This document shows, piece by piece, positions 315-19,179 of a DNA stretch of 46,346 bases. This DNA is from Candidatus Kuenenia stuttgartensis (GTDB lineage: Bacteria; Planctomycetota; UBA11346). Each line of letters starts with the position of its first letter. The first letter of the stretch is position 1. The stretch lies in contig CAMCAC010000003.1 in NCBI GenBank assembly GCA_945872305.1, positions 1 through 46,346 of the forward strand, read 5' to 3'. A program made the translations under genes and the position numbers. The notes below the pieces were generated by a model that saw only the letters and a program-made list of their open reading frames with translations, searched no databases and was not told the origin of the DNA.

Positions 315-952
315 GGGGTTCCCAGGTGGAGGAGCGAGCGCACGCCTTCGAGCATCATCTCCACCGCCAGGGCGCCAAGCATCAGGCCCATCAGGCGCGA
401 GCCGATACCGATGGCGATGGGGCCGATGCGGTCATGCAGGGCCACCGCAAGGCGGAGGGTGATCCAGGTGGCGACGGCGGCGAGGACGATGGGCCCGAGC
501 AGGGACCAGCCGGGCAGGTCCCGGGCCTGGAGGTCCGCGTGCATGACCATGACGGTCAGGATCGAGCCGGGCCCGGCGAGGACCGGGATGCCCAGGGGCG
601 TGATGCCCACATCCGGCTTGGCGACGCCGGCGGCGGTCTCGGCTTCGCTGGTGGTCGTGCGGCTCGGACGGGCGCCCATCATCTCGGCGGCGATCAGGAG
701 CAGGAGCAGGCCGCCGAAGACCCGCAGGCCGTCGAGGCTGACCCCGAACAGGCCGAGTAGCGCCTGGCCGGCATAGGCGGCGGTGGCGAGCACGCAGGCC
801 ACGGTCACCGCCGCAGTGCGGGCGGTGCGCTGGCGACGGACCGCATCGTCATGGGCGGTCATGGTCACGAACAGGGCCGCCGCGGCGACCGGGTTCAGGA
901 TCAGGACCAGGGTGGTCAGACCCTTGGCGAGGACGATCAGGTGCTCGTCCAT
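311..952 (-). CDS. MarC family integral membrane protein
   Basis: A 213-residue hydrophobic protein with about six predicted membrane segments. It begins MDEHLIVLAKGLTTLVLILN, followed by the family's NP motif and a later GIPVLAGPGSILTVM segment. These fit the MarC/UPF0056 family, whose usual length is 200-220 residues. The central loop (about residues 88-110) is polar, as in relatives. MarC was once thought to affect multiple antibiotic resistance, but the transported substrate is unknown, so no transport role is assigned. The ATG at 952 overlaps the stop of the helicase gene upstream, and its own stop overlaps the GH3 start. Both are 4-base ATGA junctions, indicating translational coupling. 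The family call is firm; the function is open. Confidence 0.85.
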   Translation of the reverse strand: MDEHLIVLAKGLTTLVLILNPVAAAALFVTMTAHDDAVRRQRTARTAAVTVACVLATAAYAGQALLGLFGVSLDGLRVFGGLLLLLIAAEMMGARPSRTTTSEAETAAGVAKPDVGITPLGIPVLAGPGSILTVMVMHADLQARDLPGWSLLGPIVLAAVATWITLRLAVALHDRIGPIAIGIGSRLMGLMLGALAVEMMLEGVRSLLHLGTP

Positions 953-3264
953 CAGCCGCGGCTCAGCTTCCCGGCCGCCATGGCCAGGACCATCTCCCGC
1001 CGGCCGGCGCTGGTGAAGTCGATGACCACGGTGCGGTCGCCGGCGGGACCCTTCATGGCCACAACGGTGCCACGACCGTAGATGGCGTGGATGATCGCAT
1101 CGCCGGGGCGCCAGGGATCGTCGTCGAGGACCTGGGCGGCATCGGCGGCGCGCGCGATGGCGGCGTTGCGGCGCTTGGTCGCGGCGCCCTTGGCGGCGGC
1201 GCTCTCGTGGGCCAGCCCTTCGTCGTCGTCCGGGTCTTCGGCGGGCTCGCCGCCACGCCGCTTGAGGGCCGAGCCCTTGGTGAGCAGACCGCTCGCCAGC
1301 GCCTTGGCCATGGTGTAGCCGCCGGCGGGCTCGCTGCGGGCGGTGGTGCGGTCCTTGGATTCGAAGCAGTCCGCCGGCATCTCGCCCAGGAACCGGCTCG
1401 GTTCGTTGCGGAAGGTCTGGCCGTACATGAACCGGCAGCGGGACCGGCTCAGGTAGAGTTCCTCCCGGGCGCGGGTGATGCCGACATACATCAGCCGGCG
1501 CTCCTCCTCCAGGTCGGCGCACTCGTTCTTGCGCATGAGCGGGAGGATGCCCTCCTCGCAGGCGGTGATGAACACCACCGGGAATTCCAGGCCCTTGGCG
1601 GCGTGCAGGGTCATCAGGGTGACCCGTTCGGCGCTGCCGTCGTCGCGCTTCTCGTCGGCGTTGAGCGCCGCCTGGTCGAGGAAGCCGCCCAGCCCCTCGC
1701 TCGGGAACGACTCCAGGTAGGACTCCGCCGCGGAGATGACCTCCTCGATGTTCTCGACCCGCTCCTGGGCCTTGGCCGGCTCCTCGGCCTTCAGGTAATG
1801 ATCCTTGATCCCGCTCATCTCGATCACGCCGCGCACACAGGCGGGCGGATTGCCGAGGGGCAGGGTGCGCAGCATCTTCCAGGTGCGGGCCAAGCCGCGC
1901 AGGGCGGTGGCGGCCCGGCCGACCGCGATGCGCTCCAACAGATCCTCGCGCAGCAGGGCGTCGATCGGGCCGACCCCCTCCTCGTCGCACAGCTCCATGA
2001 GCAGGTCCACGGTCTTGTCGCCCACGCCCCGGGCGGGGACGTTCACCACCCGCAGGAAGCTGGTCCGGTCCGCGGGATTGGCGAGGACCCGCAGGTACGC
2101 GAGGACATGGCGGACCTCCTCACGGTCGTAGAAGCGGGTGCCGCCGACGATGCGGTAGGCGATGCCGCGCCGGCGCAGGCCGTCTTCAAGGTAGCGGGAC
2201 TGGGCGTTGGTGCGGTAGAAGATGGCGATGTCCGCCGGGCGCCGGCCGCCCCGTTCGAGCATGCGCTCCACCGCCGCCGCCACCGCCCAGCTCTCGTCGG
2301 TCTCGTCGTCGACCGCCAGCACGGTGATCGGTTTGCCCTGCACATTGTCGGTGCGGATGGTCTTCTCCATCCGCTTCTGGTTGTTCTCGACCACCTTCTG
2401 GGCCGCGAGCAGGATGGTCTTGGTCGAGCGGTAGTTGGTCTCCAGCAGCACCTTGGTGCACGGCTGGAAGTCCTCCTCGAAGCGCAGGATGTTCTCGTAG
2501 TCGGCGCCGCGCCAGCCGTAGATCGCCTGGTCCGGGTCGCCGGTGGCGCACACGTTGCGGTGCTCGCCCAGGGCGCGGATCAGCCGGTACTGCACATGGT
2601 TGGTGTCCTGGTACTCGTCGACCAGGATGTGGCTGAAGCGGCCCTGCCAGCGGGCGCGCACTTCGGTGTCGTTCTCGAACAGGTGCAGGGGCATCGCCAG
2701 CAGGTCGTCGAAGTCGAGCAGGTGCTCCTCGCGCTGGATGCGCTGCCAGACCTTGTGGCAGGCCTGGGCGACGGTCTCCACATCGTTTGCCGGCTCCAGC
2801 TTGGCGATGTCCCGGACCTGGTTCTTCCACGCCGAGATGCAGTGCATGACCTGGCGGTGGTCGACCACCTTGGTGTCGATCTTCAGCTCGTCGTAGATGC
2901 GGTTGCGGTAGGTCCGCTCCAGGTCGTCGGCGTCCTGCACCGACGGCGCCTGGGTGAAGCCGAGCTTGGCCCACTCCTGGCGCACGATGCGCAGCCCGGC
3001 GGAGTGGAAGGTGGTGATCCACGGCGTCTCCAGCCCGATGAGCTTCCAGACGCGCTCCTTCATCTCGCCCGCCGCCTTGTTGGTAAAGGTGATGGCGAGG
3101 ATGCGGGTCGGATGCACCCCGTGCTGGACGAGGTTGGCGATGCGGTGGGTGATCACCCGGGTCTTGCCCGAGCCGGCGCCCGCCACGACCAGCAGCGGCC
3201 CATCCAGGTGGGCCACCGCCTGGCGCTGCTCGGGATTCATGCCGGCATAGACATCAACGGCCAT
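952..3264 (-). CDS. pcrA: UvrD/PcrA-type ATP-dependent DNA helicase
   Basis: A 770-residue superfamily 1A helicase, a normal length for UvrD/PcrA. Visible motifs, in order, are AGAGSGKT (Walker A, residues 28-35), DEYQDTN (Walker B, about 215), GDPDQAIYGWRGA (motif III), NYRST (motif IV), TLHAAKGLEFPVVF (motif V) and YVGITRAREELYLSR (motif VI). The C-terminus ends in a WRPGDAIIHAIYGRGTVV segment. This matches the Tudor-like RNA polymerase-binding domain of PcrA/UvrD and argues against Rep. The enzyme unwinds DNA 3'-5' in repair and in removing stalled polymerase or RecA. The start at 3264 was chosen over the later ATG at 3240 because it gives MAVDVYAGMNPEQRQAV, the usual short leader. The start codon abuts a heptamer inverted repeat (3265-3401), which leaves only a weak ribosome site (GGAA). 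Confidence 0.95.
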   Translation of the reverse strand: MAVDVYAGMNPEQRQAVAHLDGPLLVVAGAGSGKTRVITHRIANLVQHGVHPTRILAITFTNKAAGEMKERVWKLIGLETPWITTFHSAGLRIVRQEWAKLGFTQAPSVQDADDLERTYRNRIYDELKIDTKVVDHRQVMHCISAWKNQVRDIAKLEPANDVETVAQACHKVWQRIQREEHLLDFDDLLAMPLHLFENDTEVRARWQGRFSHILVDEYQDTNHVQYRLIRALGEHRNVCATGDPDQAIYGWRGADYENILRFEEDFQPCTKVLLETNYRSTKTILLAAQKVVENNQKRMEKTIRTDNVQGKPITVLAVDDETDESWAVAAAVERMLERGGRRPADIAIFYRTNAQSRYLEDGLRRRGIAYRIVGGTRFYDREEVRHVLAYLRVLANPADRTSFLRVVNVPARGVGDKTVDLLMELCDEEGVGPIDALLREDLLERIAVGRAATALRGLARTWKMLRTLPLGNPPACVRGVIEMSGIKDHYLKAEEPAKAQERVENIEEVISAAESYLESFPSEGLGGFLDQAALNADEKRDDGSAERVTLMTLHAAKGLEFPVVFITACEEGILPLMRKNECADLEEERRLMYVGITRAREELYLSRSRCRFMYGQTFRNEPSRFLGEMPADCFESKDRTTARSEPAGGYTMAKALASGLLTKGSALKRRGGEPAEDPDDDEGLAHESAAAKGAATKRRNAAIARAADAAQVLDDDPWRPGDAIIHAIYGRGTVVAMKGPAGDRTVVIDFTSAGRREMVLAMAAGKLSRG

Positions 3265-3401
3265 TCGGGTTCCGGGTTTCGGGTTTCGGGTTTCGGGAGG
3301 GCTGCTGGTGAACTCAGGGGGATTTCGGAGGGATGGACTCCAGGGGCTCCAGACCCACGGATCCACCGGTCCCGAAACCCGGAACCCGGAACCCGGAACC
3401 C
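3265..3401. repeat. Heptamer-built inverted repeat with G-quadruplex motifs (copy 1)
   Basis: The left arm (3267-3297) is four heptamers of type GGGTT(T/C)C plus a final GGG. The right arm (3371-3401) is its inverted counterpart. The 31-base arms match at 29 positions, and the two differences are T opposite G, so RNA from the plus strand could pair along the whole arm by wobble. A loop of 73 bases separates them and has no open frame. GGG runs at 3267, 3274, 3281, 3288 and 3295, each separated by 4 bases, fit the canonical quadruplex pattern. The minus strand has the same five-run pattern at 3371-3401. The element fills the space from the pcrA start codon to 7 bases before the panC stop. Confidence 0.9.
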
Positions 3402-3408
3402 ATGGGGA

Positions 3409-4287
3409 TCAGTCCTCGACCGACACCGGGATGGCGGCCCCTGACAGGGCCACATGGTCGATCAGGCGTACGCCGTCGACGAACACCGCGGCGGCGAGCA
3501 CACAGCGGTCGTTGGCGGTGTCCGCCTCCGCGAAGCCGTGGATGTCCACCACATCGCAGTAGTCCACCTCGACGCCGTCGTGGACCAGGAGCTGGTCATA
3601 GACGTTTTCGCACAGCTTGAGGCTGGTGTGCTCGCCGGCGGCAAAGGCCCGGCGGGCCAGTTCCAGCCCCCGGGGCAGGCCCAGGGCCTTGGCCCGGGAC
3701 TCCGCCGACAGCCGGCGGTTGCGCGAGGACATCGCCAGCCCGTCCGCGTCGCGGACGGTCGGGGCGACCACGATGTCGATGCCCAGGTCCAGGTCGCGGA
3801 CCATGCGCGAGATGATCAGCACCTGCTGGAGGTCCTTCTGCCCGAACACCGCCACGTCGGGACGGACGATCGAGAACAGCTTGTTCACCACCGTGGCCAC
3901 GCCGCGGAAATGGCCCGGGCGGGCCACCGCGCACAGCTTGTCGGTGAGCGGGCCGACCACCTCGACGAAGGTGCAGTAGCCGTCCGGGTACATCTCCTGG
4001 GCGGTGGGCAGGAACACCGCATCGACCCCGGCGGCGGCGAGCTGGCGGCAGTCGTCCTCCAGGGTGCGCGGGTACTTGGCCAGGTCCTCGGGATTGTCGA
4101 ACTGGGTCGGGTTGACGAAGATCGAGGCGACCACCGTGTCGGCCCCCGCGGCCCGGGCCTGGGCCACCAGGCTCAGATGGCCCTCATGCAGGGCGCCCAT
4201 GGTCGGCACGAAGCCGATCCGCCGGCCGTCCCGGGTCCGGGCGCGGCTCCAGGCCCGCTGCTCGGCGATGGTGGTGATGCGGTCCAT
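3409..4287 (-). CDS. panC: Pantothenate synthetase
   Basis: A 292-residue cytoplasmic enzyme that joins pantoate and beta-alanine using ATP, the last step of vitamin B5 synthesis. Sequence evidence is FVPTMGALHEGHLSLV near residue 25 (HIGH-like nucleotide-binding motif), SIFVNPTQF, the FGQKDLQQ motif, RDADGLAMSSRN (with the KMSKS-equivalent loop) and normal family length. The start at 4287 (MDRITTIAEQ) follows GGAAGG about 10 bases upstream. Upstream in-frame sequence has no family similarity, so the longer frame is rejected. The gene is divergent from the FHA gene, 60 bases away. Downstream lie the inverted repeat and pcrA on the same strand. Confidence 0.96.
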   Translation of the reverse strand: MDRITTIAEQRAWSRARTRDGRRIGFVPTMGALHEGHLSLVAQARAAGADTVVASIFVNPTQFDNPEDLAKYPRTLEDDCRQLAAAGVDAVFLPTAQEMYPDGYCTFVEVVGPLTDKLCAVARPGHFRGVATVVNKLFSIVRPDVAVFGQKDLQQVLIISRMVRDLDLGIDIVVAPTVRDADGLAMSSRNRRLSAESRAKALGLPRGLELARRAFAAGEHTSLKLCENVYDQLLVHDGVEVDYCDVVDIHGFAEADTANDRCVLAAAVFVDGVRLIDHVALSGAAIPVSVED

Positions 4288-9074: not shown

Positions 9075-9213
9075 CAGGTTGCGGGCCGGGCGGGGCCCGG
9101 CGTTGCGGGCGGGCGCTGCGCGCCACGCGTTGCGGGTTCCGGGCCGCCAGATGTGCAGCGGCAGGAAACGACGAAAACCGCAACGCGAGCGCAGCGAGCC
9201 CGCAACCCGATGC
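9075..9213. repeat. GC-rich inverted repeat between convergent genes (divergent copy 2)
   Basis: The gap between the HD gene stop and the ndk stop is filled by an imperfect inverted repeat. The left arm lies at about 9101-9143 and the right arm at about 9173-9209. Shared blocks, read on one strand, are GTTGCGGGC, GCTGCGC and CGCGTTGCGG in the same order. The extra GGTTGCGGGC at 9078-9087 duplicates the first block. The GGGTTGC and GGGTTCC words also occur in the heptamer repeats at 3265 and 18504, so it may be a degraded or chimeric relative. It holds no open frame. Confidence 0.65.
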
Positions 9214-9777: not shown

Positions 9778-9853
9778 GGGGATATAGCTCAGTTGGTAGA
9801 GCGGTTCGTTCGCAATGAACAGGTCAGGAGTTCGAATCTCCTTATCTCCACCA
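9778..9853 (+). tRNA. tRNA-Ala (anticodon CGC)
   Basis: A 76-base cloverleaf with encoded CCA. The acceptor stem GGGGATA pairs with TATCTCC (9843-9849) and includes a G3:U70 wobble, the alanine identity element. The D stem is GCTC/GAGC. The anticodon stem GTTCG/TGAAC closes the loop TTCGCAA, giving anticodon CGC, which reads codon GCG. The T arm is AGGAG-TTCGAAT-CTCCT. GCG is a common Ala codon in this GC-rich sequence, consistent with keeping a dedicated CGC isoacceptor. Confidence 0.97.
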
Positions 9854-18503: not shown

Positions 18504-18660
18504 TGGTTTCGGGTTTCGGGTTCCGGGTTGCGAGAAAGGTCGCCGCTGAAATACGACGGGGAGGGTGATGCTGGATGCGCGTCCGCCGTGCTCCGAAGAG
18601 GATTGGGTTCCTGTCACACCGAGGATCGACCTCCCGAAACCCGAAACCCGAGACCCGCAA
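18504..18660. repeat. Heptamer-built inverted repeat with G-quadruplex motif (copy 3)
   Basis: The left arm (18505-18534) is a run of heptamers GGGTTTC, GGGTTCC and GGGTTGC. The right arm (18633-18660) is the inverted counterpart, reading GTTGC, GGGTCTC, GGGTTTC, GGGTTTC, GGG on the minus strand. The minus strand has four GGG runs spaced by 4 bases (18633-18656), a canonical quadruplex pattern; the plus-strand arm has three full runs and one GG. The loop of about 98 bases is unlike that of copy 1 (3265-3401) and has no open frame. The element occupies the whole gap between the CDF stop codon and the stop codon of the convergent gene. Confidence 0.88.
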
Positions 18661-19179
18661 CTACCCCTGATTCCCCGCCATGGCGGCGACCTCGTCGCGG
18701 CGGGACCGCCAGGCGGCGGGGTCGGCGGCGGCGTCGATGGTCCGCACCGCCCGGCCGTCGTGGATGGGGGCTTCGGGCTGCTCGTCCTGGGCCTGGACGC
18801 GGCCGTCGGGATGGATGGCGAAACTGTCCGGATACCAACGACGGTGGCCGCTGGGGTCGAAGGCCTGGGGGCCCACCACCCGGGCGCCCCGGGCGGCGAT
18901 GTGGACGACCCCGTCGGCGTCGCGCCAGGCGAGTGCCGGATAGGCGACCCGGTAGGCCTCCTGACCCTCAACGATCTCGCTGGTCGATACCCAGGCGGCC
19001 TGGGTCCGGCCGAGGCCCGGCGCGACCACGATCCAGGTGCGATGGTCCCCGCCCCACTCGACCTGCCAGGCCGCCGCCGGCGCGGCGGTCACGGGCCGCG
19101 ACGATCCCGGACCTGCGGGCGTCGGGGCATCGCCGGCCGCCACCACGGCCGCGAGGACCAGGAGGGGCAGCGGCCGCAT
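18661..19179 (-). CDS. Small exported protein downstream of rpoN
   Basis: A 172-residue protein with a signal peptide (MRPLPLLVLAAVVAAGDA, cleavage near residue 16). The mature part has several strand-like stretches with Trp (WQVEWGGDHRTWIVVAPGLG, AYRVAYPALAWRDADGVVHI, HRRWYPDSFAIHPDGRVQAQ). It ends in a charged helix (DPAAWRSRRDEVAAMAGNQG). No known family is recognised. Its ATG at 19179 overlaps the rpoN stop (ATGA), so it is translated from the same message. The right arm of the inverted repeat runs up to its TAG stop. A periplasmic or surface location is inferred from the leader. Confidence 0.75.
   Translation of the reverse strand: MRPLPLLVLAAVVAAGDAPTPAGPGSSRPVTAAPAAAWQVEWGGDHRTWIVVAPGLGRTQAAWVSTSEIVEGQEAYRVAYPALAWRDADGVVHIAARGARVVGPQAFDPSGHRRWYPDSFAIHPDGRVQAQDEQPEAPIHDGRAVRTIDAAADPAAWRSRRDEVAAMAGNQG

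Follow-up and report, generated by a model that had tools for sequence, protein, structure and literature searches.

Quadruplex-forming heptamer repeats of the types GGGNATC and GGGGA(C/T)T have been described in Xanthomonas and Nostoc (Rehm et al. 2015, PMC4692102). Repeats of the GGGAATC type prefer four units, and two Xanthomonas genomes (X. campestris/citri) contain 70 and 75 such repeats paired convergently, respectively. According to the same study, the role of the heptamer repeats remains to be elucidated, and neither a function nor an origin is given for them. Here we describe a related family, found by following up an inverted repeat in a 46,346-nt stretch of Candidatus Kuenenia stuttgartensis DNA (the window). 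The source genome, G000, comprises 2.92 Mb in 275 contigs and is 78.65% complete.

The new elements resemble the repeats of Rehm et al. in their G-run heptamers, their preference for four units, their intergenic position and, for Xanthomonas, their convergent pairs. In both cases the G strand leads away from the nearest ORF (sense after a stop, antisense before a start). They differ in the heptamer itself, which is GGGTTYC in G000, in their near-fixed arms of 31-32 bp ending in GGGA and in the pairing of most loci. Furthermore, there is evidence here that pair and interior were inserted together as a single unit, and different genera of one family carry different words. This insertion as a unit is what would be new, judging from sequence comparison; otherwise the elements appear to be kin of the known heptamer repeats.

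Two other systems are close. Like REP/BIME/REPIN dimers (GTAG and CGTC families; Di Nocera et al. 2013, PMC3733652), the elements are small, dispersed, intergenic and species-specific, with inverted dimers of variable spacing, singletons, clusters and a location after stop codons. However, the REP unit is palindromic and tagged, whereas the G000 unit is neither, and a link to RAYT transposases was not found. MITEs and TIRtron-derived TIR repeats share terminal inverted repeats, a short non-coding interior and whole-unit empty sites, but the G000 element has no target-site duplication and its terminal repeat is built from tandem copies of a 7-bp word. We consider it probable that the family consists of short, apparently non-autonomous mobile elements, with ends made of four G-rich heptamers plus GGGA, that insert whole and have the arm as their functional part.

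Results

An inverted pair of heptamer arrays between panC and pcrA

The inverted repeat upstream of pcrA has 32-nt arms that are complementary at 30 of 32 positions (94%) and separated by 71 nt. The left arm, GGGTTCC(GGGTTTC)3GGGA, occupies positions 3267-3298 of the plus strand, the interior 3299-3369, and the right arm, (GGGTTCC)3GGGTTTCGGGA, positions 3370-3401 of the minus strand. The original prediction had 31-base arms around a 73-base loop, which is the same repeat less one closing pair. Its five GGG runs with 4-nt spacing on each strand were confirmed. Both neighbouring genes, named from Pfam matches, lie on the minus strand. The ATG of the pcrA/uvrD-family helicase gene (952-3264) is at 3264, 2 bp from the left arm, and the stop codon (3409) of panC, encoding pantoate-beta-alanine ligase (3409-4287), is 7 bp from the right arm. 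The gene transcript is therefore the minus strand, in which the stem has two C-A breaks and is still stable (-96.6 kcal/mol, z -5.1). The unbroken stem that had been predicted for plus-strand RNA, with T opposite G, does exist on that strand, but it is the non-coding one.

The window contains 12 GGGTTNC array matches, compared to 0.36 expected, and none of 100 dinucleotide shuffles reached 12. A second, more degenerate element lies at 18505-18661, flanked by a cation-efflux gene on one side and by a convergent gene with no Pfam match on the other. Its left arm (18505-18535, plus strand) begins 1 bp past the cation-efflux stop codon, its interior (18536-18631) is 96 nt long and its right arm (18632-18661, minus strand) touches the stop codon of the convergent gene. 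The window also holds a tRNA-Ala gene (anticodon CGC, 9778-9853) with spurious ORFs overlapping it, and a GC-rich intergenic repeat of the CGCAACGCG type (9101-9206). Similar copies of this repeat occur on several other contigs, and one such copy falls within the loop of the L029 element.

The repeat is a genome-wide family with a fixed arm

Across the whole G000 genome we found 63 exact 19-mer array matches, while a reversed control pattern gave none. A census of arm pairs covering 1.77 Mb of the 2.92 Mb yielded 23 inverted (convergent) pairs and 13 single arms, and no outward-facing pair closer than 3 kb. A repeat confined to this locus would have counted against the original prediction; instead there are dozens of loci. 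Its proposed kinship with the GGGNATC class stands as a relationship in kind: this is a genuine family of quadruplex-capable heptamers in inverted arms, with a consensus, GGGTTYC, that is not of the GGGNATC or GGGANTN type. An assembly artefact is unlikely, since the family occupies dozens of independent sites flanked by intact genes and the same word is present in cultured bacteria such as Wenzhouxiangella sediminis. A literature search for heptamer strings returned, judged by title, unrelated subjects only. The GGGTTNC family was named in no paper found, as had been anticipated, but inverted heptamer pairs as such were already reported by Rehm et al. (PMC4692102).

Elements are about 80-275 bp long, mostly 105-170 bp. 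The arm is nearly always (GGGTTYC)4GGGA, 31-32 bp, and is about 98% conserved outside the T/C position. Its inner end (GGGA) is sharp, while the outer end is fuzzy and starts with GGG, GG or G. Some loci carry additional arms, oriented alike and spaced by linkers of 5-6 bp (L010 in G000 and L283 in the related genome G002). The sixth letter of the heptamer is other than T in 41% of cases, and the T/C pattern along the arms is random. Cytosine deamination was rejected as the source of this variation because the G-to-A changes that should accompany it on the opposite strand are seldom seen.

Interiors, by comparison, are unrelated to each other in G000, including that of the panC-pcrA copy. No common interior was found among G000 copies (best match 26.8 bits, shuffled maxima up to 25.4), and in 1.97 Mb of G000 the interiors had no donor copies; the only hits were short ones attributable to chance and those of a single unrelated repeat family. 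Neither a transposase nor any other ORF lies inside an arm pair in the 1.77-Mb census, and no parent transposon with the same ends was found there.

Elements abut genes of many kinds

Genes were called with a codon-usage caller trained on G000. Loci are intergenic, and the 5' end of the G strand is nearest the ORF edge. Of 24 arms beside a stop codon, 23 are at a distance of -1 to 8 nt; of 22 beside a start codon, 10 are no more than 10 nt away, and some of the others reflect uncertain starts. The gaps holding pairs are co-directional (18), convergent (3) or divergent (2). The median native gap between co-directional genes is 12 bp. Since most element-bearing gaps, minus the element, resemble these native gaps, the arms appear to abut genes.

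The neighbours of the family are many unrelated genes, so we regard pcrA as incidental, and the suggestion that the element could control a helicase is unsupported. It was correctly predicted that the element abuts the pcrA start codon and takes the place of its ribosome-site region. However, this loss means little because a Shine-Dalgarno-like motif precedes only 32% of called G000 genes (15% in shuffled sequence).

The proximity to stop codons, with arms 0-8 nt away, and the stable folds on both strands (z about -5) would suit an intercistronic RNA hairpin, in which the arms pair in the panC-pcrA mRNA and steer processing or translation of pcrA, with selection on the pairing. It is also the case that E. 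coli REPs at most 15 nt from a stop codon can stall ribosomes (discussed in PMC12306157). However, arms within a pair are no more alike than arms across loci (permutation p 0.87-0.89), and on transcribed strands the disruptive C-A mismatches (20) outnumber the tolerated U-G wobbles (10). With no extra likeness within pairs and this mismatch bias, RNA pairing does not seem to be a maintained feature. Elements also occur in convergent and a few divergent gaps. We therefore consider the hairpin explanation quite unlikely, and arm pairing as the selected feature was rejected: there is no covariation, and the mismatch bias is in the wrong direction.

At most loci, relatives lack the whole unit

Relatives were searched with protein pieces flanking the elements, and gene distances were determined by hand from match coordinates, which makes them good to a few nt. 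The distance between panC and pcrA is 162 in G000, compared to 34, 21, 34 and 46 in four relatives (G001, G018, G016 and G013). The difference, 116-141, matches the 135-bp element rather than the 64 bp of its arms; the interior is missing from the relatives along with the arms. Similar results were obtained for hemE-hemG (128 versus 31 and 20; element 113), for the gene pair at L021 (190 versus 11, 11, 20 and 14; element 138) and for that at L013 (222 versus 39, 57 and 5; element 157). In G002, the distance is about 137 for galK-ykgJ (versus 6-9 in two congeners), about 140 from uppS to the next gene (versus about 0) and 334 at L233 (versus 170-185; element 126). Because the spacing in relatives lacks the whole unit, the loop came in together with the arms at most loci, and insertion of the arms only is contradicted there. 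The arm pairs tested thus behave as MITE-like units, with terminal inverted repeats and an empty site in relatives.

There are two departures from this pattern. At L274 in G002 the difference is about 66 bp for an element of 228 bp, an exception that fits insertion of the arms only. The accB-accC distance is 129 in G000 (element 105) and 28 in G001. In three further relatives, however, it is 110-178; G018, which is among these three, has an array of its own there. The same gap thus holds arrays in both the G000 and G018 genera, in differing words, and some gaps may therefore be insertion hot spots.

These distances bear directly on whether tandem-repeat growth by slippage occurred at both edges of a native gap, with the loop being the original gap. 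Arms do sit at gap edges, array lengths are free in other phyla, and the L274 spacing fits, as do the terminator-like hairpins that three interiors carry in the manner of native 3' regions. However, the loop too is missing from relatives at most testable loci, the array length is fixed near four units, and where more units occur they form tandem arms with 5-6 bp linkers instead of longer arrays. Slippage is improbable on this evidence, and the panC-pcrA distances in the four relatives already go most of the way to refuting it.

It should also be noted that fuzzy outer edges are unusual for transposon ends. The mobile-element reading is weakened by this fuzzy edge, by the lack of a target-site duplication (none detected; p 0.51 and 0.16), by the absence of a transposase from the pairs of the 1.77-Mb census and by the unrelated interiors in G000. 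The L274 spacing, the terminator-like hairpins and the accB-accC distances in three relatives weaken it further.

Conservation of the arms points to sequence rather than structure

Deviation from the arm consensus is 1.3% for the G runs, 2.1% for TT and 0.5% for C; only the sixth position is free. A quadruplex requires G runs and not an exact TT and C, so that all loop letters would be free to drift. As TT and C are kept about as well as the G runs, a quadruplex alone is insufficient to account for the conservation. This makes it unlikely that each arm is a G-quadruplex switch that folds in DNA or RNA as a roadblock or as a guard of mRNA 3' ends, an explanation that also leaves the whole-unit insertion unaccounted for. 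In its favour are the five G runs per arm, a preference for four units like that of the Xanthomonas repeats, and the K+-dependent quadruplexes formed by oligonucleotides of those repeats (PMC4692102). The conservation pattern points to selection on the arm sequence itself, which would be read by the mobilising machinery or by another protein. Gene conversion among arms is an alternative source of the conservation.

Y1 transposases lie apart from the arrays

REP dimers are likewise intergenic, downstream of genes, inverted, variably spaced, and found as singletons and tandem groups (PMC3733652), and two Y1_Tnp (IS200/RAYT-like) genes are present in G000. Together with the missing target-site duplication, this would be compatible with a REP/REPIN-type element mobilised by an IS200/IS605-like (Y1) transposase, RAYT or TIRYT. 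However, by the definition in PMC3733652 the arm consensus has no palindrome and no GTAG or CGTC tag. Neither Y1 gene is flanked by arms; within 6 kb of either, the only array is one short match 3.4 kb away. We consider such mobilisation doubtful, and a RAYT link is unsupported in the roughly two-thirds of the genome that was read.

The two Y1 genes (13300-14500 in L136 and 5000-6100 in L059) each lie beside their own palindromic repeat (CCCAGGGCAACGCCCTGGG; GCCGAGCATTGCTCGGC), and the GCCGAGCATTGCTCGGC type has 24 copies in 1.97 Mb of G000. Conventional REP-like families coexist with the heptamer elements in this genome.

Relatives use the same design with other words

Among 97 relatives, few genomes have any match of the G000 type, and almost all of these have no more than two; the eight in G096 are, where read, not inverted pairs. 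Other genomes of the same family carry different G-run heptamers, GGGGTCC in G002, G018 and G015 and GGGGGTC in G009, while yet others have no such arrays, even within the genus of G002. The G002 arm is (GTCCGGG)4GTC, 31 bp, in convergent pairs as in G000. A young G002 subfamily has its interior in common, one end of which carries AAAGACAGGATCGGTGATG (13 matches scoring 30 bits or more, versus 0 in 20 shuffles), and on sequence grounds has the appearance of decaying copies of a mobile element. Homology of the unit is visible only in G002; G000 interiors are mutually unrelated while the arms are intact.

The shared G002 interiors also bear on telomere-like healing, whereby broken ends would be capped by G-rich repeats and then joined over filler DNA. 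A G strand running 5' to 3' away from the flank on both sides, a fixed inner and fuzzy outer boundary, a random T/C pattern and no target-site duplication are what such healing would leave, but interiors in common point to a unit that was copied, not to random filler. We regard it as highly improbable.

Several further observations were made in other genomes. At L246, L252, L258 and L270 in G018, a conserved CATTGCCCC lies outside about half of the GGGGTCC arms read, suggesting a longer end or a preferred target. At L279 and L286 in G002, elements that cross a gene end lengthen the predicted protein by an arm-encoded tail, GPGSGVRGPGS. Sporadic GGGTTYC arrays, mostly unpaired and of free length, occur in many phyla. 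In Bacteroidetes UWMA-0293 (L174, L178 and L181), free-length GGGTTCC arrays with no inverted partners start a few bases past a TAG, apparently the same placement as in G000 in an unrelated phylum. The G000 element had no match in plasmids or phages; five viral contigs carry longer unpaired arrays.

Discussion

In the mobile-element reading that we favour, an arm-interior-arm unit would have entered whole into a panC-pcrA gap of about 9 bp. Insertions would survive mainly in short intergenic gaps, so that arms come to abut stop or start codons. Afterwards the interior would decay while the arm sequence is kept, which would make the arm the functional part, a putative recognition sequence for a recombinase or another binding protein.

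A wider extension is that G-rich heptamer arrays in several phyla, Xanthomonas included, are the ends of one overlooked mobile class, in which four copies of a short, species-specific word form the terminal repeat and the word is read or written by a putative repeat-reading enzyme. We offer this only tentatively, as unlikely. The occurrence of the same design with another word in related genomes suggests that G-rich repeats of this kind, which are poorly understood in bacteria, spread as mobile units. With whole-unit empty sites, an origin of heptameric quadruplex repeats from mobile elements becomes testable, and the difference in word among genera of a single family provides a lead to the protein reading it. 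Such repeats should not be taken as dedicated regulators of whichever gene adjoins them.
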